The position numbers and the translations under genes are program-made. From Candidatus Lambdaproteobacteria bacterium (GTDB lineage: Bacteria > SAR324 > JACQKK01), in assembly GCA_016199125.1 (NCBI GenBank), contig JACQHH010000143.1:1-35970 (forward strand): a DNA stretch of 35,970 bases, read 5' to 3'. Under the pieces are notes generated by a model. The model did not search any database, was not told where the DNA came from, and worked only from the letters and a program-made list of their open reading frames with translations. Of this stretch, positions 1,207 to 27,809 are shown one piece after another. The first letter of the stretch is position 1. Every line of letters begins with the position of its first letter.

Positions 1207-2577
1207 TTAATGATGGGCCGCAGGGTTTCGGCGAGGCGGCTCCAACCCTTCCTTGACCTCCGCGATGGCCATGCTGGGCATGGCGCGGATGAAGGCCGTG
1301 AACAGGGTGAAGAACATTCCGAAACTGCCAAGTGTGATGCCGAATTCAACGATGGTCGGGTGGTAGCTGCCCCAGTTCGCCGGGTTGAAGTCGCGTTGCA
1401 GCGAGCTCACCACGATGTTGAAGCGCTCGAACCACATGCCGACGTTGATCAGCACCGAGATGATGAACAGGGCGATCACATTGTTGCGAATCTTGAACCG
1501 CCACAAGGGCAAGGGGCTGATCACATTACAGAACACCATGATCCAGAACGCGAAGTTGGGCACCCCGAAGTCGCCCTTGTGGAAGAACGGCGACCCGTCG
1601 CCGATCTCCCCGAAAGGTCGGAAGTAGAACAGCCCCCGCTCGTAGGGCACGCCGCTGTAGTAGGCGATGAAGAACTCCGTGGTGTAGGCGTAACCCACGA
1701 TGATCGAGGTGAACAGGATCACCTTGGCCAGACTCTGCATCACGTGATGGGTGATGTACTTCTCCAGCCCGAACACCGTGCGCAGCGGAATGCAGATGGT
1801 GAGCACCATGGCCAGGCCAGAAAAAATGGCCCCGGCCACGAAGTATGGCGCGAAGATGGTCGTGTGCCAGCCGGGAATCAGCGACATGGCGAAGTCCCAG
1901 GACACGATCGAGTGCACCGAGAACACGAGGGGCGTGGCCAGCGCCGCCAGCAACAGGTAGCCGCGGGCGTAGTGCAGCCACTGCTGGTAGGAGTTGTTCC
2001 AGCCCAGCGCCAGTTGCCAGTAGATCAGCTTGCGGATGCCCTTGGCATTGTCGCGCATGGCCGCCAGATCGGGCACCAGACCGACCACGAAGAACGTCAC
2101 GGAAATGGTGAGGTAGGTGGAGACCGCGAACACGTCCCACAGCAGCGGCGATTTGAAGTTGACCCACAGCATGCGCTGGTTGGGATAGGGAATCAGCCAG
2201 TAGGCCAGCCACACGCGCCCCACGTGAATCAGCGGGAACAGGCCGGCGGTCATCACGGCGAACACGGTCATGGCTTCGGCGGCGCGGTACACCGGCGCCC
2301 GCCAGGGCGCGCGGGTGAGAAAAAACACCGCCGAGATCAGCGTGCCGGCATGGCCGATCCCGATCCAGAACACGAAGTTGGTGATGTAGACGCCCCAGCC
2401 CACCGGGTGCGAAATGCCGCTCAGGCCCAGGCCCACGTCGATCTGGATGGCCCAGCTCAGGGCCCCGATGCCGAACGCAATCACGAACCCCACCAGCAGC
2501 AGGTAGTAGGCCGGTTTGGGCCGCACCAGGGTGCGGAGCATGTCCGCATTGACATCCGCGTAAGTGACGCTACTCAA
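1207..2577 (-). CDS. actC: ActC, NrfD/PsrC-type quinol-binding membrane subunit
   Basis: 456-residue polytopic membrane protein of the NrfD/PsrC family, with about ten hydrophobic helices from YYLLLVGFVIAFGIGALSW to GSFGMFFTLFTAF. In alternative complex III, ActC provides the quinol-oxidising site next to the iron-sulfur chain of ActB and may form a proton path. A recognisable family stretch is IGIGHAGTLISAVFFLTRAPWR near residue 70. The TTG start is supported by a perfect AGGAGG six bases upstream, inside the end of actB, and by the gap of a single base after the actB stop. The ATG at codon 13 is a weaker alternative. Quinone binding is a family inference. Confidence 0.92.
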   Translation of the reverse strand: MSSVTYADVNADMLRTLVRPKPAYYLLLVGFVIAFGIGALSWAIQIDVGLGLSGISHPVGWGVYITNFVFWIGIGHAGTLISAVFFLTRAPWRAPVYRAAEAMTVFAVMTAGLFPLIHVGRVWLAYWLIPYPNQRMLWVNFKSPLLWDVFAVSTYLTISVTFFVVGLVPDLAAMRDNAKGIRKLIYWQLALGWNNSYQQWLHYARGYLLLAALATPLVFSVHSIVSWDFAMSLIPGWHTTIFAPYFVAGAIFSGLAMVLTICIPLRTVFGLEKYITHHVMQSLAKVILFTSIIVGYAYTTEFFIAYYSGVPYERGLFYFRPFGEIGDGSPFFHKGDFGVPNFAFWIMVFCNVISPLPLWRFKIRNNVIALFIISVLINVGMWFERFNIVVSSLQRDFNPANWGSYHPTIVEFGITLGSFGMFFTLFTAFIRAMPSMAIAEVKEGLEPPRRNPAAHH

Positions 2578-6283: not shown

Positions 6284-6857
6284 GTAAATCCCTGGATGAT
6301 TCGACCTGATCGTCATCACGCACGGAAACGCGCCGCCCCGAATGGCCACCATCCCCCTCAGATGGCTCACTCAGCGCATCCGTTGCATTGCTTGGCTCGT
6401 GGGCACGGTTGCCGGATTGTCGATCTCCGATTTCTCGGCGGGAGTCGAGCAGTCGGTGTCGGACATACCAGTCTGCTCTCGTCGGTAGATCAGTTGCGTC
6501 CGTCAGCGTCAGTGGCTGTACGGTCCTGCGTGTCACGGAAGATCACTAAAAAACATATTCTTCCGAGAATTGCAATGGCCGCCCGGGCGTCCGGGGGAAA
6601 AAAGATTGCCCCGATTCGCGCGCGCCGTGCCAGCGCCAACCCGCCCCCGGCGGGCATCAGCGGCGGACGAGCACGGTTGCGGAACACATGCAGTGAAGCG
6701 GTTCGGCTGTCGCCGCGGGGCGTGCGCAACCCCCGGCCAGGCAGCCATGCGGACAGACGCAACTTGTACCGGGAAATGCCTCGTGTGGCCCGTTGTGCCG
6801 CGCGCGGCGCAGCCGGAACCGGGCCCATCGCGGCCGGGCCGCGATGTGGGGAAGCGT
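6284..6857. other. 574-base gap upstream of the act operon
   Basis: No convincing gene on either strand; the track ORFs here are shadows with no recognisable content. It must hold the act operon promoter. On the minus strand TTGCAA is followed after 17 bases by TTTTTA in the only AT-rich patch (around 6545-6575), but the -10 match is poor and I do not call it. The right end holds the hairpin listed separately. Confidence 0.5.
6826..6846 (-). terminator. Perfect 9-bp hairpin after the PilZ-like gene
   Basis: CATCGCGGC and GCCGCGATG form a perfect nine-base-pair stem around a three-base loop. It begins 11 bases after the PilZ-like stop codon in the minus direction. There is no T-run, so it is either a 3'-end stabilising or pausing hairpin or an unusual terminator in a GC-rich genome. 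Confidence 0.5.
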
Positions 6858-7220
6858 TCAGGCCTGCGGCCGCTCCGCTTCCTCGGCGATGAATTCGAGC
6901 AGTTCGGGGGAAGCGTGCAGGAAGCGCGCGCGCACGGCGAACAGGCCCGGCTCGGCGGGCACCGGTGCGCAATGCACCACCTCTGCGTCGACCATGATCG
7001 AGCCGCGGCAGAGAATCACTTCCAGCACCTTGCCGCCGGGAATGGGCGCCGGTGCGCGGAAGGCAATGCCGTTGGCGTGCAGCGCGATGCCTTCCATTTC
7101 GTCGCCGTACTTGGGCCGCACGACGACGGATTGGGGATAGGGTTTGGGAAATGCGGTTTGCGCGGCGCCGCGGCGGCTTGGCGTCGCCTGCGCCGCGGGC
7201 TGCTGTGTTGAAGGGGTCAT
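6858..7220 (-). CDS. Small PilZ-like domain protein
   Basis: Predicted 120-residue cytoplasmic protein. After a Pro/Ala-rich N-terminus of about 30 residues, the core (GIALHANGIAFRAPAPIPGGKVLEV, then DAEVVHC and AVRARFL) fits the beta-barrel pattern of PilZ domains, which often bind cyclic di-GMP. The N-terminal RxxxR ligand motif is not clear, so binding is doubtful. The ATG at 7220 is chosen because upstream sequence in the longer ORF is Arg/Pro-rich and unlike coding sequence; the ribosome site (AGGTGG) is close to the ATG. It is followed by a strong hairpin and lies between the respiratory operon and the reductase gene, with no evident functional link. It could instead be an unrelated small beta protein. 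Confidence 0.5.
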   Translation of the reverse strand: MTPSTQQPAAQATPSRRGAAQTAFPKPYPQSVVVRPKYGDEMEGIALHANGIAFRAPAPIPGGKVLEVILCRGSIMVDAEVVHCAPVPAEPGLFAVRARFLHASPELLEFIAEEAERPQA

Positions 7221-7447
7221 GACCACCTGGATATCGGGGACGTTGCGCGCTGCAACCCCCCACCGGGGCACGGATTGCCCCGGCCGGCGACGCGCCTGTT
7301 CCCATCGCCCATGCAAGCCTGAGCCCAATGGAGCGTGACCAGGGCTCGGAGCGGAGACGGGCCGCCTGCCGATCATGCTCATCAAGGCGGCGGGGTGCCG
7401 GTCGGCGTGGGAGATCGGCGCATCCGGAGGCGATGCCGGGCTCTTCG

Positions 7448-8848
7448 CTAGCCGCCGAGCGCGGCCAGCATGTCGCCCACGGTGCTGAACTTGTCGCGGG
7501 GCTTGCCCTGTTTCTTGCCGGCGGCCATCTCCAGGGCATCCAGGCGTTTCCAGTCGTTGAAGGACACGTAGCGCACGCCCCGCTTGGCCAGCAACTTGGG
7601 CAGCGTATCCGGCGATCCCTCGATATCCCGGCCGGACGCCAGGGCCGTCACGTCGTCGAGCATGCGCCTGACCGTGGCGATGGAATCGGGCTTGTTGGTG
7701 CCGATCACGCCCGACGGCCCGCGCTTGATCCAGCCGGCCACATACAGCCGCGGGATGGGCTGCCCCGCACCCGGCTCCAGCACGCGCCCGTCGGCGTTGG
7801 CGATGATGCCGGCCTTCTCGTCGAACGGCATGCCGGGCAGAGCCGAACCGCGATAGCCGATGGAGCGGAAGACCATCTGCACGGGCAGCACCTCGGTCTC
7901 GCCCGTCCCGCGGGCGCGCACGGTGCCCTTGTCATCCTTGACGAGCTCGTTCTTCTCGATGCGAATGCCTTCCACCCGCTGCGTGCCCAGGATTTCCGTG
8001 GGGGAGACGAAGAAGCGCGCGCGGATTTTCTTCTCCTTGTCGCCCTCACCGGCGGCAATCTGGCCGGTGAGAATCTCCACGTTGCGCTTGTGTACCGGGT
8101 CCTTGGCGCCGTCGAGGAACTCCTGGCTGATGGGGTCCAGCGACAGGTCGGGCGGGTGCACCACCAGATCGGCGACCTCCATGCTGCACAGCTCGCGAAT
8201 CTCCGGGTTGGTGAAGGCGGCCTGCGCCGGGCCACGCCGCCCCAGCAGGTAGATGGTCTTGACCGTGCTGCGCTTGAGCGCGTCCAGCGCATAGCCCGCG
8301 ATGTCCGTCACTTCCAGCTCGGCGATGGAGCGTGCCAGGATGCGCGTGACGTCCATGGCCACGTTGCCGTTGCCGATCACCGCCACGCTCTGCACCTGGT
8401 CCAGCGCGAAGCTCAGGTCGCGGTAGTCCGGGTGCGCGTTGTACCAGCCCACGAAGATCGTGGCCGGATAGCTGCCGGGCAATTCCTCGCCGGGAATGCC
8501 CATCCTGTTGTCCGTCTCGCAGCCCGTGCAGAACAGCACCTGATGATAGTGGGCCAGCAGGTCCTCGCGCGTGACGTCGCTGCCGAACGTGACGTTGCCG
8601 AAGAAGCGGAAGCGCGGCCGCGCGGCGGTGCGCTCGTAGAGCTTGATCACCGATTTGATCTTCTGGTGATCCGGCGCGACGCCCCCGCGCACCAGGCCGT
8701 AGGGCGTGGGCAGACGGTCGAACATGTCCACGCAGACCTGCGGCTGCTCCTGCCTGAGCAGCTCTTCCGCCGCGTAGAAGCCCGCCGGCCCCGACCCGAC
8801 CACCGCCACGCGCAGCGGATTGCCCGCGCTACCGATCTGTTCTGCCAA
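7448..8848 (-). CDS. fprA: Ferredoxin/adrenodoxin-type NADP+ reductase
   Basis: 466-residue flavoprotein of the adrenodoxin reductase/FprA type, close to the family's usual length. Visible motifs: the FAD-binding VVGSGPAGFYAAEELL at about residue 15, the family signature RLPTPYGLVRGGVAPDHQ near 50, the NADP-binding VIGNGNVAMDVTRIL near 155, and the C-terminal YVAGWIKRGPSGVIGTNKPDS that closes over FAD. It would move electrons between NADPH and a ferredoxin. The TTG start at 8848 has a perfect AGGAGG seven bases upstream, while the ORF extension to 8902 is Arg/Gly-rich and lacks a ribosome site. No ferredoxin gene is adjacent. Confidence 0.9.
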   Translation of the reverse strand: MAEQIGSAGNPLRVAVVGSGPAGFYAAEELLRQEQPQVCVDMFDRLPTPYGLVRGGVAPDHQKIKSVIKLYERTAARPRFRFFGNVTFGSDVTREDLLAHYHQVLFCTGCETDNRMGIPGEELPGSYPATIFVGWYNAHPDYRDLSFALDQVQSVAVIGNGNVAMDVTRILARSIAELEVTDIAGYALDALKRSTVKTIYLLGRRGPAQAAFTNPEIRELCSMEVADLVVHPPDLSLDPISQEFLDGAKDPVHKRNVEILTGQIAAGEGDKEKKIRARFFVSPTEILGTQRVEGIRIEKNELVKDDKGTVRARGTGETEVLPVQMVFRSIGYRGSALPGMPFDEKAGIIANADGRVLEPGAGQPIPRLYVAGWIKRGPSGVIGTNKPDSIATVRRMLDDVTALASGRDIEGSPDTLPKLLAKRGVRYVSFNDWKRLDALEMAAGKKQGKPRDKFSTVGDMLAALGG

Positions 8849-13495: not shown

Positions 13496-15004
13496 GTGAT
13501 CGCGGGAATCATCAACTCCGCCGGCATCAAGGAAGACCCGCCGGCGACGATGAACGCCCCATCCGGAAGCAGCCGCGGTTTTGACCGTGCGCTGCGGCAA
13601 GCCTCGAACCGGCCACCGGCCCAACGGGCGGCCACGGAGCAGCAACGCAGCTCCGGTTCCGATCCTCAGGTGCGCCAGAAGTATGGCGCCGCGGCCAAGG
13701 CCGCCCAGGGCTCTCCTTCGAGCCAGGGCGCGAACGGCGCGGAACCACCTGGGGACGCGGAAAATATTGCCTCGCCCGAGTCCAGGGGCGAGGAAAATAT
13801 TGCCCAGTCCCAAGGCAAGGACGAACAATCCCTCAAGCCAGGCGTGCAGGTGGGCACCGATGCGACGGCCAGTCTGGCTGCCGTGGCACCGGCGCTGACC
13901 CTTGTGCCGCAGAGCGCCGATGGCGGCAGTACGGACGTGCAAGCGGGCGCCGCAAGCCCGGCAACGCCGTCCGTTCAGGCCGACGCGTTGCAGTTCAACG
14001 CCGACACGGAGGGCTCGCAGATCGTATCGCGCCCTGGCATCAGCGCGCAGATCGGCGGCGCGGCCTATCGCCTCACGCAACACGGCGGCAGCGAGGCCCA
14101 GTTCGCGGCCCAGGCCGGGCAGACGCCCCAGTCGGGCGCCGTGGTCCTGCCCCGGGGCATGGCGCTGCAGGAGGCGGTGCCCGAAACCGCGCCCAAGCTG
14201 ACCCCACCCAAGGACGACACCACCACGCAACTGCTGAACCTGGCTCGTCAGCCGGTGGCGCGCGCGCCCATCGCGGGCGCGCTGACGCCACAGCAACTGG
14301 TGCAGCAGACCCTGGTGCAGGGCGATGCGCAGACGCGCAACCAGCTCATGATGACCTACGGGCTCAACCAGAGCCCGCAGTTGGCGGCGGGCAGCACGCC
14401 GTTGCCGCAAATGGGCATCCTGGGCCAGCCGCGCTTCTTCGGCGATGCGCCGCTGACCACCAGCCTGCGTCAGAGCGCCGAAACGCGCGAGGGCTCCACG
14501 GCGACTCTGCCGGGACCCGTGCAGTTGCCCCTAGCCCCCGCGGGCGTGGCCCAGGCGCAGGGCGCAGGGGCCGCGGTACCCAGCGAGCACATGCTGGAGC
14601 GCATGGTGCACGAGGCACGGTTGATGCTCGGTGGAAACCGCAACGAGGCCAGCTTCAAGCTGCATCCGGAACATTTGGGCGAAGTCACCATGAAGGTCAC
14701 CCAGCACGACGGCGTGATCAAGCTGGATCTGACCGTCCACAATCACGCAGTGAAGACCCTGATCGAATCCCAGATGGATGAGCTCCGGCAGCGCCTGAGC
14801 GCAGAGCACCTGGGCGGGGGGGAATTCACCTTCAATGTCAACGTCAACCAAAACGATCACCAGCCCCGCGAGGGGGTGCTGACGCAGGCCGCCGACAGCA
14901 TGGCGCCGCTGGGCCGCAGGCCCGCGGAGCCCGGCCCGGCCGCCAACCTGCCGCCCAGGCTGCGTCCCGTCTGGGGCCTGGCCGGCACGGGAATCTACGC
15001 CTGA
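13496..15004 (+). CDS. fliK: Flagellar hook-length control protein FliK
   Basis: 502-residue protein with a long, low-complexity Ala/Gln/Pro/Gly-rich N-terminal part, as expected of the molecular ruler. A conserved C-terminal Flg_hook domain covers about residues 360-460 (EASFKLHPEHLGEVTMKVTQ, then MDELRQRLSAEHLGGGEFTFNVNV). FliK senses hook length and switches export specificity. The GTG start has AGGGA five bases upstream. It lies between motE and flgD. Two copies of GGAAAATATTGCC, listed separately, make an in-frame ENIA repeat near residue 90. Confidence 0.88.
   Translation: MIAGIINSAGIKEDPPATMNAPSGSSRGFDRALRQASNRPPAQRAATEQQRSSGSDPQVRQKYGAAAKAAQGSPSSQGANGAEPPGDAENIASPESRGEENIAQSQGKDEQSLKPGVQVGTDATASLAAVAPALTLVPQSADGGSTDVQAGAASPATPSVQADALQFNADTEGSQIVSRPGISAQIGGAAYRLTQHGGSEAQFAAQAGQTPQSGAVVLPRGMALQEAVPETAPKLTPPKDDTTTQLLNLARQPVARAPIAGALTPQQLVQQTLVQGDAQTRNQLMMTYGLNQSPQLAAGSTPLPQMGILGQPRFFGDAPLTTSLRQSAETREGSTATLPGPVQLPLAPAGVAQAQGAGAAVPSEHMLERMVHEARLMLGGNRNEASFKLHPEHLGEVTMKVTQHDGVIKLDLTVHNHAVKTLIESQMDELRQRLSAEHLGGGEFTFNVNVNQNDHQPREGVLTQAADSMAPLGRRPAEPGPAANLPPRLRPVWGLAGTGIYA
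13759..13804 (+). repeat. Two direct copies of GGAAAATATTGCC inside fliK
   Basis: The 13-base AT-rich word occurs at 13759-13771 and 13792-13804, 33 bases (11 codons) apart, and encodes ENIA twice. It stands out against GC-rich surroundings and looks like a small in-frame duplication in the ruler region. Confidence 0.6.
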
Positions 15005-15027
15005 CCATCGAATAGGAGTCGCGCCAC

Positions 15028-15804
15028 ATGGATGTACGAGCCAATACCGAGACCGCGTTGCGCCAGGCCGGCACGTCGCTGGCCAATGCCACCAGCGCAC
15101 CTGCCCCCGGCGGCAAGGACAAGCTGGGCAAGGACGATTTCCTCAAGCTGCTCATGGCGCAGGTGACCCATCAGGACCCGCTGAATCCGATGGATTCCCA
15201 GGGCATGATGAATCAGCTCACCCAGATGGGCGCGTTGGAGCAGATGGTCAATCTCAATGCGGGCGTCGGCAAGCTCAACGAAGTGCAGGCCGATATCGCG
15301 CGCTCCAGCGCCTACACGTTCCTGGACAAGGACGTGGCGGTGCGGGGCGGCGGCGCCAGCGTGGAGGCGGGGACGCCCACCACCCCGGTCATCTTCGAGC
15401 TGCCCTCGGAGGCTGAGCAGGTGCAGGTGAACGTGCTCGACACCCAGGGACAGCCGGTACGGCGGTTGGAACTGGGACGCTACGCGGCCGGCAACCACGA
15501 GGTGCGCTGGGACGGCAAGGACGATGCCGGCATGCCCGTGGCCGACGGCAACTACCGCTACGAGGTCTCCGCCACGGCCGGCGACGCCGCTCCGCTGACG
15601 GTGGACATGTTCAGCCGCGGCAAGGTGGCGGGCGTGCGCTTCAGCAACGGGCGCAGCCTGATCAAAGTCAATGGCCGCGAAGTAGACATTCGCGACGTGG
15701 TCGAGCTGTCCAACCAGTCGCAGCGGCTCTTCGGCGAGCGCAAGCCCCTGCCGCTGCAACAGAATTTCAGGCTCATGCCGCCCATCAAGGAGCCGCAGCG
15801 CTAG
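15028..15804 (+). CDS. flgD: Flagellar hook cap/scaffold protein FlgD
   Basis: 258-residue scaffold for hook assembly. The N-terminal FlgD signature is clear: KDDFLKLLMAQVTHQDPLNPMDSQGMMNQLTQMGALEQM at about residues 36-75. It is followed by the FlgD Ig-like/Tudor region (VNVLDTQGQPVRRLELGRYAAGNHEVRWDGKDDAG) and the C-terminal RGKVAGVRFSNGRSLIKVNGREVDIRDV. The ATG is supported by AGGAG nine bases upstream. It starts 23 bases after fliK and precedes flgE, the standard order. Confidence 0.93.
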   Translation: MDVRANTETALRQAGTSLANATSAPAPGGKDKLGKDDFLKLLMAQVTHQDPLNPMDSQGMMNQLTQMGALEQMVNLNAGVGKLNEVQADIARSSAYTFLDKDVAVRGGGASVEAGTPTTPVIFELPSEAEQVQVNVLDTQGQPVRRLELGRYAAGNHEVRWDGKDDAGMPVADGNYRYEVSATAGDAAPLTVDMFSRGKVAGVRFSNGRSLIKVNGREVDIRDVVELSNQSQRLFGERKPLPLQQNFRLMPPIKEPQR

Positions 15805-15980
15805 CCGCTGCCGCCATGGGCGGAGCGCCGGTCACATGGATGTGCACGCCGGAATCAATGAACTGAACGACCCGACCGCATGGAACGGTGGGTCCATCCA
15901 AACGGATTTGGTATCGCCGCTGCAGGAGCCGCCCAGGCGGCCTGGCCGCGCGATTCCTCAGGAAAGAGAAGAGGGTTTCT

Positions 15981-17447
15981 ATGTTCGCATTGAATTCCGG
16001 CGCGAGCGCCTTGAATGCATACGGCGAGGGCATGACCGTGGTGGGCTCCAACATCGCCAACGTGAACACGGTCGGCTACAAGTCCAGCCGCGTGAATTTT
16101 CAGGACATGCTCGCCACGCAGGTGCGCGGGGCCAAGCAGACGATCGGCAAAGGCGTGTCGATCGCCAGCGTGCAGGGTGAATTCACGCCCGGCAGCCTCG
16201 AATCTTCGACCCGCATCACCGACCTGGCCATCGAGGGCGATGGCTTCTTTACGCTGCGGGACGAATTCGGCCGCACGTTCTATTCCCGTGCCGGCAACTT
16301 TGACTTCGACAAGGAGGGCGTGCTGGTGGCGCCATCCGGCGAGAAGGTGATGGTGCAGGACATCAACCGCGTCACGGGCGAAATCCAGGGCTTCGCCAAG
16401 CAGGCCAAGATGGTGGGCCTCACCAGCCCGCCCACGGCCACCGGCGACGGCACCAACAACACCGGCGTGCGGATCGCGGCCAACCTCAACGCCGAAGTCA
16501 CCGTGCCCGCGGTGCCTTTCGATCCCACCAACGTCCAATCGGAAATGTTCAACTTCTCCACCAGCGCCATCGTGTACGACGAGCGCGGCGGGGAGCACGT
16601 GATGAACATCGTGTTCCGCAAGATGGCCGACACGCCGCAGCAGATCGATGCGGCTACTGGCCAGCCCATCCCCGGCAGCGGATCGCGCAACCAGTGGCAA
16701 TGGTACGCCGTGTTCAACGCGGGCGAGTTCCAGGGCAACCCGGAGCAACTCGTGGCGCTGGGCGGCGGCTTCTTGCGCTTCGCGGACAACGGGCGCCTGC
16801 TGGAAAGCACCAACGGCCAGTTCGTGGCCGCCGGCCCCGGCCAGGTGGGACCCACCGGTCAGCTCATTCCGCCCGGCCCGCCGCAACTGGTGCGCCGGCC
16901 GCTCAACGAGGGCGTGCCCGTCCCGCAGATCGTGGTGCCCTTCTTCGAGACGCCGCAGACCATCGGGCTCAATTTCGGCCTGGGCTCGAATCCGTTCGAC
17001 CCCACCGATGGGCGCACGGGCCTGGACGGCATCACCCAGTTCGCGGCGGAATCCAAGGTGAGCAAGCTGGAGGCCGATGGCGGCAAGGTGGGCAACCTGG
17101 AGGGCTTCGACATCACCGCGGCCGGCATTATCAACGGCCACTTCGACAACGGCGCCATCCAGCCGGTCTATCGCCTGGTGCTCACGCGCTTCCAGAACAA
17201 CCCCGGCCTGCTGCGCCAGGGCGACAACAAGTTCGCCGAATCGCTGACCTCCGGGCGGCCGGTGGTGGGCAACCCCAACGACGGCACTTTCGGCAGCGTG
17301 CGCTCGCAGAACCTGGAGAAATCCAACGTGGATCTCTCCACCGAATTCGTGCGCATGATCGAAACCCAGCGCGGATTCCAGGCCAACGCCAAGTCCATCA
17401 CCGCCAGCGACGAGATGCTGGCCGACTTGGTGGCCATGAAGCGCTAA
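15981..17447 (+). CDS. flgE: Flagellar hook protein FlgE
   Basis: 488-residue hook subunit. The N-terminus MFALNSGASALNAYGEGMTVVGSNIANVNTVGYKSSRVNF is the conserved rod/hook helix D0. LEIEGDGFF-type sequence (LAIEGDGFFTLRDEFG) follows near residue 80, and the C-terminal helix LEKSNVDLSTEFVRMIETQRGFQANAKSI completes the D0 pair. Length and the central variable domain fit FlgE better than FlgG or FlgF. The ATG at 15981 has AGAGGG seven bases upstream; the track ORF start at 15888 adds an Arg-rich stretch lacking homology. The gap of 176 bases after flgD holds nothing I recognise. Confidence 0.92.
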   Translation: MFALNSGASALNAYGEGMTVVGSNIANVNTVGYKSSRVNFQDMLATQVRGAKQTIGKGVSIASVQGEFTPGSLESSTRITDLAIEGDGFFTLRDEFGRTFYSRAGNFDFDKEGVLVAPSGEKVMVQDINRVTGEIQGFAKQAKMVGLTSPPTATGDGTNNTGVRIAANLNAEVTVPAVPFDPTNVQSEMFNFSTSAIVYDERGGEHVMNIVFRKMADTPQQIDAATGQPIPGSGSRNQWQWYAVFNAGEFQGNPEQLVALGGGFLRFADNGRLLESTNGQFVAAGPGQVGPTGQLIPPGPPQLVRRPLNEGVPVPQIVVPFFETPQTIGLNFGLGSNPFDPTDGRTGLDGITQFAAESKVSKLEADGGKVGNLEGFDITAAGIINGHFDNGAIQPVYRLVLTRFQNNPGLLRQGDNKFAESLTSGRPVVGNPNDGTFGSVRSQNLEKSNVDLSTEFVRMIETQRGFQANAKSITASDEMLADLVAMKR

Positions 17448-24924: not shown

Positions 24925-24945
24925 CGCCGCGGACCTACGCGGCGC
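24924..24945. terminator. Perfect hairpin spanning the stop codons of hemC and the ppsA-like gene
   Basis: GCGCCGCG and CGCGGCGC form an eight-base-pair perfect stem around a six-base loop. The stem begins at the last base of the hemC TAG and covers the ppsA-like stop (24935-24937). It could act on both transcripts; there is no T-run. Confidence 0.5.
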
Positions 24946-27358
24946 CCTCGGCCTCCAGGAACCACTGCCGCGCCTCCATGAACACGTCCGGCCGCACGGC
25001 GACGTAGCTGGCCTTCTTGAAGGCGGGCTGCTCGGCGAAGAACTTCAGGTTGCCGGGGGCGATGTTGGTCAGCCCCATGGGCTTCCTGGCTTTCTTGGCC
25101 GCGCTGACGGCGATGGTCACCAGTTGCACCACCGCCGGATGCCGCTCGGAGTAGAACTCCAGCAGGGTGTTGCTGCGGTCCATGCCCTGGGCCAACTGGG
25201 CGGTTTCGCCCACGTCCAGGATGAAGCCGTCGAACTTGTCGGCCAGCTCGCCCACCACCATGGCCTGCGCGGGCGTGCGGCAGAGCAGCAGCACCGCCAG
25301 CCCTTGCTGGCCCTGTTGCAGTCCGGCGTCGGCCAGCAGTTCCAGGGCCGTGTCCGCCTCGCGGGCGCTCTGGGCGCCGGGGACCACCACCGCGATGTTG
25401 TCGAGGCCCATCTCGTTGCGCGCGCGGGCCAGGGCGCTCACCTCCAGCTTGAAGGCCTCCTCGTAGTCCAGCTCATGGAAGCGCGCCGCGCCGCGCAGGC
25501 CCAGCATGGGATTCGCCTCGCCGTAGCTGAACTGCTTGCCGCCGATCAGCGCATCGAGCTGACGCGTGGGGCTGTCCGGCAGCAACACGTGTACCGGCTT
25601 GGGATAGACCGCCGCGGCGATCTGGCCGATGCCCTGGGAGAGCCGGTTCACGAAGTAGACGCTCTTGTCCGGGTAACCGCGCGAGACCTCGTCGATCTGC
25701 TTGACGATGGCCTCGTTTTCGCCGTTCTTCTTCCAGTTCGCATAGTCGCGGGCAGCCAGCGGATGCAGCTTCACCTCGTCACGGATCAGCTCGTCCATGC
25801 GCAGCAGGCCAATGCCCTTGATGGGGTAGCGCGATTCGGGAAAGGCCCGGTCGGAGTCGCTCTGCTGAAACATCATCTTGACCTTGGGCATCTCCAGCTC
25901 TTCGATGCGGATGGTCTCTTCCTTGAAGGGCAGCACGCCCTCGTAGACCACGCCCTTGCTGCCCCCGGCGCAGGACACGGTGACCGCCTTTCCGCCCGGA
26001 ATGCTGCGGGAGCCGGAGCCCGTGCCCACGATGCAGGGAATGCCCAGCTCGCGCGAGATGATGGCCGCGTGGCAGGTGCGCCCGCCCTGGTCGGTGACAA
26101 TGGCCGACGCGATCTTCATGATCGGCACCCAATCCGGGTCGGTCATCTCGGTGACCAGCACCTCGCCTTGCTTGAAGCTCTCGATGTCCTTGGCGCTCTT
26201 GATCACGTGCGCCGGGCCCGTGCCGATGTTGTCCCCCACGGCCATGCCCTGGGCCAGCTCCTTGCTGGTCTTTTCCAGCACGATGCGGCGGATCACGCCC
26301 GTCTCACGGCGCGAAATCACGGTCTCCGGGCGGGCCTGCACGATGAACAGGTCGCCAGACTGCCCGTCCTTGGCCCACTCCATGTCCATGGGCTTGTAAT
26401 AGCCGGCCTCGGCGGAATAGTGCTCCTCGATGATGCAGGCCCACTTGGACAGCACGAGCACCTCGTCCTCGGTGAGGCAGAATTTCTCGCGTTCCGCCTG
26501 GGGCACGGGCACGTTGGCGGTGCCTTTGCCCTTGGACGGATCCACGTAGATCATCTTCTGCTGCTTTTCCCCCAGGTGTGCGTAGATGATCGAGCGGTGG
26601 CCCTTGTGCAGCGTGGGCTTGTGCACATACCACTCGTCCGGGTTGATGGAGCCCTGCACCACGTTCTCTCCCAGGCCGTAGCCGGCCGTGACATACACCG
26701 CGTCCTTGAAGCCGCTCTCCGTGTCGATGGAGAACATCACGCCCGCCGCCGCCAGGTCGCTGCGCACCATCTTCTGCACCGCGATGGAGAGCGCCACGGA
26801 AAAATGGTCGAACTGCTTTTCTTCGCGGTAGGCGATGGCCCGGTCGGTGAACAGCGAGGCAAAACAGTTGCGGCAGGACTGCAACAGCGCCGCATACCCC
26901 TTCACGTTGAGATAGGTGTCCTGTTGCCCGGCGAATGAGGCATCGGGCAGGTCTTCGGCGGTGGCGCTGGAGCGCACGGCGGTGTCCACCTGCGTGCCGT
27001 AGCGCCGGCACAGCTCATCGTAGGCGTCCTTGATGGCCTGCTCCAGGTCCGCGGGCAGCGGCGCGCTGCGGATCAGCTCGCGGATGCGCCCGCCCGTCTC
27101 GGCCAATTGCGCCAGGTTGTGCCGGTCAAGCGCCTTGAGCAGCCGCTCGATCTCGCCGCGGATGCCGCTGGAATCCACGTAATACTCGTAGGCGTAGGCG
27201 GAGATGGCATAGCCGTCCGGCACGCGCACCCCTTTTTCCGTAAGGTTCGCGAACATCTCGCCCAACGACGCATTTTTGCCGCCGACGATGGGCACGTCTT
27301 TGATGCCCAGGTCGGAAAACCAGTAGATCAGCTGCTTCGATTTGGATTTGCTCGCCAT
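24935..27358 (-). CDS. PEP-synthase-like phosphotransferase with a degenerate C-terminal barrel
   Basis: 807 residues, full PpsA length. The ATP-grasp domain is very well kept (VGGKNASLGEM, AVRSSATAEDLPDASFAGQQDTYLN, MVRSDLAAAGVMFSIDTESGF, QARPET), as is the swivelling domain with catalytic His (TDQGGRTCHAAIISRELGIP). The C-terminal PEP/pyruvate barrel aligns along its length (ANPMLGLRGAARF, ALARARNEMGLDN) but has lost active-site motifs. Compared with E. coli, VRLSDFK reads VLLPDSP, PFVRT reads PGAQS, CEIPSN reads CRTPAQ, GSNDMTQ reads DVGETAQ and GICGQ reads GLTNI. It may phosphorylate another substrate. The ATG at 27358 has AGGTGG eight bases upstream. A 129-residue unknown gene lies 61 bases upstream, probably in the same operon. 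Confidence 0.85.
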   Translation of the reverse strand: MASKSKSKQLIYWFSDLGIKDVPIVGGKNASLGEMFANLTEKGVRVPDGYAISAYAYEYYVDSSGIRGEIERLLKALDRHNLAQLAETGGRIRELIRSAPLPADLEQAIKDAYDELCRRYGTQVDTAVRSSATAEDLPDASFAGQQDTYLNVKGYAALLQSCRNCFASLFTDRAIAYREEKQFDHFSVALSIAVQKMVRSDLAAAGVMFSIDTESGFKDAVYVTAGYGLGENVVQGSINPDEWYVHKPTLHKGHRSIIYAHLGEKQQKMIYVDPSKGKGTANVPVPQAEREKFCLTEDEVLVLSKWACIIEEHYSAEAGYYKPMDMEWAKDGQSGDLFIVQARPETVISRRETGVIRRIVLEKTSKELAQGMAVGDNIGTGPAHVIKSAKDIESFKQGEVLVTEMTDPDWVPIMKIASAIVTDQGGRTCHAAIISRELGIPCIVGTGSGSRSIPGGKAVTVSCAGGSKGVVYEGVLPFKEETIRIEELEMPKVKMMFQQSDSDRAFPESRYPIKGIGLLRMDELIRDEVKLHPLAARDYANWKKNGENEAIVKQIDEVSRGYPDKSVYFVNRLSQGIGQIAAAVYPKPVHVLLPDSPTRQLDALIGGKQFSYGEANPMLGLRGAARFHELDYEEAFKLEVSALARARNEMGLDNIAVVVPGAQSAREADTALELLADAGLQQGQQGLAVLLLCRTPAQAMVVGELADKFDGFILDVGETAQLAQGMDRSNTLLEFYSERHPAVVQLVTIAVSAAKKARKPMGLTNIAPGNLKFFAEQPAFKKASYVAVRPDVFMEARQWFLEAEGAA

Positions 27359-27419: not shown

Positions 27420-27809
27420 TCAGGAGATCTTACCATCCTCCACGAGTTTATTGATGGCGGCCTCCATCTCGTCCACGTCCTCGACATAGGGAATGCCGAA
27501 CTCGTCGCAGATTTTCTTGTGCACCGCCCAGAGCTGGGAGTGCACGGAGTTGGGCTTGGTGGAAACCAGGATGTCCTCGTCCTTGGAATCCATGTAGGTG
27601 TTCAGCCCCTTGATGATCTGCGAAAAATGATCCTTGAACTTGTCCTCCGAAATGTCCACCAGCGACTTGGCGGTCTTCAGCGCCATGTTCATGTAGTTCT
27701 GGCTGGACTCGAAGTCCTTGTTCTGCAAGTCAGTAATTCCCTGCTTGATGCACTTGTTGAGGCGATTGAACAGCTTGAGGTTGCGAACCGTATAGAGGGT
27801 AGCTGCCAT
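27420..27809 (-). CDS. Unknown 129-residue protein upstream of the ppsA-like gene
   Basis: I do not recognise a family. The protein is probably cytoplasmic and mainly helical: N-terminal helix MAATLYTVRNLKLFNRLNKCIKQGITDLQNKDFESSQNYMN, further amphipathic helices (TAKSLVDISEDKFKDHFSQIIKGLNTYM) and an acidic C-terminus (VEDVDEMEAAINKLVEDGKIS). No signal peptide or metal motif. The ATG at 27809 has a perfect AAGGAG eight bases upstream, which makes it a real gene rather than a shadow; the longer track ORF extends beyond this. It probably shares a transcript with the ppsA-like gene, so it could be a partner or substrate. Confidence 0.75.
   Translation of the reverse strand: MAATLYTVRNLKLFNRLNKCIKQGITDLQNKDFESSQNYMNMALKTAKSLVDISEDKFKDHFSQIIKGLNTYMDSKDEDILVSTKPNSVHSQLWAVHKKICDEFGIPYVEDVDEMEAAINKLVEDGKIS

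Follow-up and report, generated by a model that had tools for sequence, protein, structure and literature searches.

The 807-residue PpsA-like protein encoded in the window (the whole stretch of 35,970 nucleotides analysed here, which is one entire contig of a genome that is 73.5% complete) is probably an ATP-driven histidine dikinase that derives from PEP synthase and no longer makes PEP, and that would transfer its phosphoryl group to a different acceptor together with a 129-residue partner protein. This is favored by the fact that the kinase half of the protein reaches the canonical level of conservation and the barrel falls short of it, and that this combination is shared by a clade of nine genera. 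The coordinates of the features are collected in Table 1.

Table 1. Position and properties of the PpsA-like protein, its domains, its companion gene and the PPDK2 locus (positions refer to the window unless a locus is given).
Feature	Position	Strand	Details
PpsA-like protein	24935..27358	(-)	807 aa; rebuilt PEP/pyruvate barrel; full-length ORF
ATP-grasp domain	26297..27292	(-)	PF01326, residues 23-354 of the PpsA-like protein
Swivel domain	25961..26176	(-)	PF00391, residues 395-466; phospho-acceptor His430 within GGRTCHAAII
C-terminal barrel	24938..25888	(-)	residues ~491-807; PF02896 match 489-763; rebuilt pocket
Companion gene	27420..27809	(-)	129 aa; family not described before; helical bundle predicted
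PPDK2	L123:3503-6109 (G000:C194:8562-11087)	(+)	orthologues in L126-L129
Two paralogous ~620-aa proteins flanking PPDK2	L123:511-2382, 6328-8229	(+)	

The open reading frame starts at an ATG (27358) that is the conserved start codon among the orthologues, and it contains the domains PPDK_N, PEP-utilizers and PEP-utilizers_C. The homology to PEP synthase (PpsA; pyruvate, water dikinase) extends over the full length and the three domains, with full-length matches to the NCBIfam models TIGR01418 (892 bits, cut-off 740) and NF005057 (923 bits, cut-off 598), and the nearest solved relative is the PpsA of N. meningitidis (2ols). The protein shares with PpsA the domain order, the length, the residues of the ATP-grasp and swivel domains and the overall fold, but differs from it in the replaced active site of the barrel and in the presence of an extra small partner gene. 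Pyruvate phosphate dikinase (PPDK) belongs to the same superfamily and has the same kinase-half mechanism; nonetheless, the scores obtained for PPDK (TIGR01828, 81 bits versus a cut-off of 843) and for the rifampin phosphotransferase (RPH) family (289 bits, far short of the cut-off of 999) place the protein outside both. Elsewhere on the contig, a scan for RNA elements found a tRNA only, an NrfD-family membrane protein that is weakly DsrP-like (80 bits, cut-off 350) is encoded at 1210-2577 (-), and the flagellar genes fliK, flgD and flgE are located at 13496-17444.

The sequence-only reading had described the kinase half as intact, and this holds across the family, given that 91 of the 95 ATP-grasp residues and 32 of the 35 swivel residues that are invariant in canonical PpsA are kept in all nine members. 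Residues K28, R129, D325, E327, Q341 and R343 of the ATP-grasp domain, whose roles are presumed by homology to PPDK, are unchanged in nine of nine, and the phospho-His of the swivel domain is also in place. These kept residues suggest that His430 may be autophosphorylated by ATP.

For the barrel, the register was checked by alignment with 2ols and 20 canonical PpsA proteins; the canonical site is present in all 20 canonical homologues inspected. In PPDK and enzyme I, a Glu and an Asp bind Mg2+, an Arg binds PEP and a Cys acts as the acid, roles that are taken from general knowledge because a limited literature search returned no numbered residue source for these active sites. The Mg2+/PEP site of PpsA, made up of the barrel Arg, CE[IVL]P, SND and the catalytic Cys, was not found in the PpsA-like protein, in which R592L, E694R, N698Q, N717G, D718E, C764T and Q766I are among the changes. 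Only 36 of the 102 canonical-invariant barrel residues are kept in every family member and 32 such positions are lost in all nine; 14 canonical-invariant positions are fixed or nearly fixed to another residue (including R592L, E694R, N698Q, N717G, T720A, Q766I and N789R), with 10 of the 14 located at barrel strand ends. Across the nine members, Arg is fixed at the position of the Mg2+ Glu (E694R), Thr, Val or Ala stands at that of the catalytic Cys (764), Asn717 has been replaced by Gly (with Ser in one neighbouring alignment column), and one PEP-binding Arg has become Leu (R592L). At the level of motifs, the family has VLLxD where canonical PpsA has VRxSDFK, P[AGS][ACV][QH][ST] where it has PFxRT, and an invariant RTPAQ where it has E[IVL]P[SAV]N; SND is mostly replaced by VG[ED], and GQ[AG]P mostly by NI[AS]P.

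The five barrel substitutions quoted in the sequence-only reading are all real and in register with 2ols and the 20 canonical proteins. Its wording that every motif is changed was nonetheless slightly too strong, given that Arg520 and Arg622, which align with conserved canonical arginines, are retained, and that the change at the Mg2+ Asp of GSND, a position with Glu in the window and with Asp, Glu or Gly across the family, is partly conservative. Likewise, among the structural words said to stay, MDRSN is not stable, its Arg being lost in most orthologues. The possibility that the catalytic residues are preserved at shifted positions was not borne out, as no displaced copy of any lost barrel motif was found in these alignments. 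With its acid, Arg, Asn and Cys residues lost, the barrel presumably no longer makes PEP. It is very unlikely that the protein is still a PEP synthase with unusual active-site residues: it passes the equivalog cut-offs for this enzyme, and most members keep two conserved barrel arginines as well as an acidic side chain where canonical PpsA has the Asp, but the Mg2+ Glu, the Cys, the Asn and the PEP-binding Arg are replaced in all nine members, and a canonical-type PPDK is present.

The variant is found in nine of the ten genomes of one SAR324/Lambdaproteobacteria family, each from a different genus; the orthologues of the eight other genomes have 65-69% identity, and G003 (83% complete) is the only family genome without the variant. 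When a profile of the family barrel was searched against 383 genomes, the nine scored 474-540 bits and all other matches 267 bits or less. Whether a clade shares the same substitutions is answered by the tree of the kinase half, which separates the nine variants, all with these substitutions in common, from 20 canonical PpsA proteins as a single clade (100/100). The changed barrel is clearly not limited to a single genome.

In canonical PpsA the barrel is the most conserved part of the protein, with a mean identity of 60.1% versus 55.6% for the ATP-grasp domain; in the variant family it is the least conserved, with 56.6% versus 75.6-77.2% in the kinase half (75.6% for the ATP-grasp domain). 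Differences at codon positions 1, 2 and 3 of the barrel (0.32, 0.26 and 0.49, respectively) show that it is still under protein-coding constraint. On its catalytic face, the barrel is moderately enriched in invariant residues, with the strand ends read off the predicted model (25 of 72 versus 50 of 234; Fisher p = 0.018). The AF2 model of the protein has a pLDDT of 87.8 and a TM of 0.74 to 2ols, while the modelled barrel has a TM of 0.83-0.85 to the PpsA barrels 9dae and 8a8e, and the barrel is predicted to fold still. A pseudogene or a relaxed decay of the barrel, to which its identity below that of the kinase half could point, is extremely improbable in the face of open full-length frames in nine genera, new residues that are fixed or nearly so, coding constraint and an intact predicted fold; decay or an assembly chimera was rejected in view of the nine orthologues. 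The nine-genus clade, the coding constraint, the predicted fold and the PPDK of the family thus support the earlier proposal of a new acceptor or a regulatory pseudoenzyme, and not decay.

What this proposal had missed is a strictly co-occurring gene located directly upstream of the PpsA-like gene, on the same strand and 61 nt from its start in the window. This companion is present in all nine variant genomes, always adjacent and on the same strand, with gaps of 57-300 nt to the start of the enzyme. Its copies are 68-76% identical to that of the window, and 64 residues are invariant in the family, including the segment SVHSQLW.VHKKICD. Within the 383 genomes, the companion profile found nine of the nine variant genomes and none of the 374 others, bar one weak partial match (E=7e-4). 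The structure prediction gives a helical bundle with a pLDDT of 87. Nothing was found above the cut-off in Pfam (Casc1_N is subthreshold in six of the nine copies), in PHROGs or, for the window copy, in NCBIfam, and the best matches to the PDB by sequence (E 0.48) and by Foldseek (E 0.13; FliS and similar helical bundles are among the top matches ranking below it) were not significant. An undescribed 129-residue upstream protein that strictly co-occurs with the variant is what is new here. The strict co-occurrence and adjacency suggest that it interacts with the enzyme, and the two genes most likely form a module. Beyond it, guaA upstream and hemC downstream are conserved neighbours, which look like housekeeping synteny. 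A rather unlikely option is that the module works as a two-component ATP-driven phosphorelay from the swivel His to the companion, for example to its invariant His90 or His97; such a phosphotransfer system would be related neither to two-component kinases nor to the PTS.

The possibility of a second, canonical ppsA was not confirmed, as the search of the family genomes turned up no canonical copy; PPDK can fill this role. With the PPDK profile, all seven of the nearest family genomes yielded a PPDK, and those read (three complete and that of G000, whose gene is split across contigs C183 and C217) retain the canonical motifs. Judging from its sequence, the canonical-type PPDK is able to supply PEP in those family genomes that were examined, and its separate presence alongside the variant sets the latter apart from PPDK. 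PpsR (PF03618), another point of difference from PpsA, was not found in the 13 genomes searched, which speaks against regulation of the PpsA-like protein by PpsR. An ATP-fed replacement for PTS enzyme I that phosphorylates HPr could be envisaged given the homologous swivel and barrel domains and the presence of HPr in most family genomes examined. This is highly improbable, since the variant lacks the HPr-binding PF05524 domain, and the N-terminal domain of enzyme I occurs in separate, PtsP-sized proteins in all ten family genomes. With HPr in most genomes and this domain in all ten, a substitute for enzyme I is not needed.

A divergent PPDK paralogue (PPDK2) is found in all ten family genomes and in three genomes of one other genus of the same class. 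In the five read, the swivel His is kept, while the ATP-grasp and barrel motifs are altered: PPDK_N was not detected, VRSG of the ATP-grasp domain has become V[IVA]SP, and GTNDLTQ of the barrel has become GTHTLTQ or D-T/I-type variants. The two flanking ~620-aa proteins are 46-49% identical to each other, are conserved on both sides in the genomes read and have no Pfam or PDB match; a further ORF of ~350 aa, also with no Pfam match, lies between them. Given that PPDK2 is present in G003 and the three class-level genomes, where the PpsA variant is absent, the two are not strictly coupled.

For a dikinase with a different acceptor, the kept residues suggest that ATP would bind the intact ATP-grasp domain and phosphorylate His430. 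The swivel domain would then carry the phosphoryl group to a barrel unable to bind Mg2+-enolpyruvate, so that no PEP would be formed and the group would pass to another acceptor. Strict co-occurrence and adjacency point to the helical partner as a putative subunit, acceptor or regulator, and PEP synthesis would be left to PPDK. Phosphate is transferred from the swivel His to aromatic acceptors in HpeHI (PMC12167813), and in rifampin phosphotransferase a kinase half of the same kind is reported to serve another acceptor (PMC4844700). Both are small-molecule dikinases and resemble the variant in the use of an ATP-grasp domain and a swivel His for supplying phosphate to a non-pyruvate acceptor, but in the variant a PEP-type barrel located after the swivel domain forms the acceptor domain. 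The nearest precedent is VadK (Rv1127c, M. tuberculosis), described as a regulatory histidine kinase, in which a PPDK-type kinase half without a pyruvate domain has been shown experimentally to autophosphorylate on His and to affect metabolism (PMC13400623). Both proteins have kept a PPDK/PpsA-type kinase half without pyruvate chemistry; nonetheless, VadK derives from PPDK and has lost the barrel, whereas the SAR324 variant is of the PpsA type (TIGR01418), still has its barrel in a rebuilt form and is accompanied by a partner gene.

As proposed for VadK, the variant could be a regulatory pseudoenzyme that autophosphorylates, or does no more than bind ATP, and whose phosphorylation state or conformation would switch partner proteins; the barrel would then be a scaffold for docking, and no new substrate would receive a phosphoryl group. 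This is possible, and is given tentative credence here: it is consistent with the VadK precedent, the strict partner gene and the greater variability of the barrel relative to the kinase half, but the fixed new pocket residues (E694R, N698Q and the invariant RTPAQ) suggest a specific ligand or contact. Transfer to a different acceptor, which is preferred here, has to accommodate that there is no tie to a pathway, with guaA and hemC as the other neighbours, that the faster evolution of the barrel may also fit a merely structural or regulatory role, that the intergenic gaps do not prove one transcript, and that partner binding is putative.

The variant presents a central-metabolism enzyme with its acceptor site rebuilt, its ATP-using half retained and a strictly linked new partner protein. 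It parallels VadK but arrived there differently, starting from PpsA and retaining the barrel. NCBIfam equivalog models would label it (24938-27358) a PEP synthase even though the active site has been lost. Given that equivalog annotation misses this loss, metabolic reconstructions of SAR324 would read such proteins as gluconeogenic PEP synthase.
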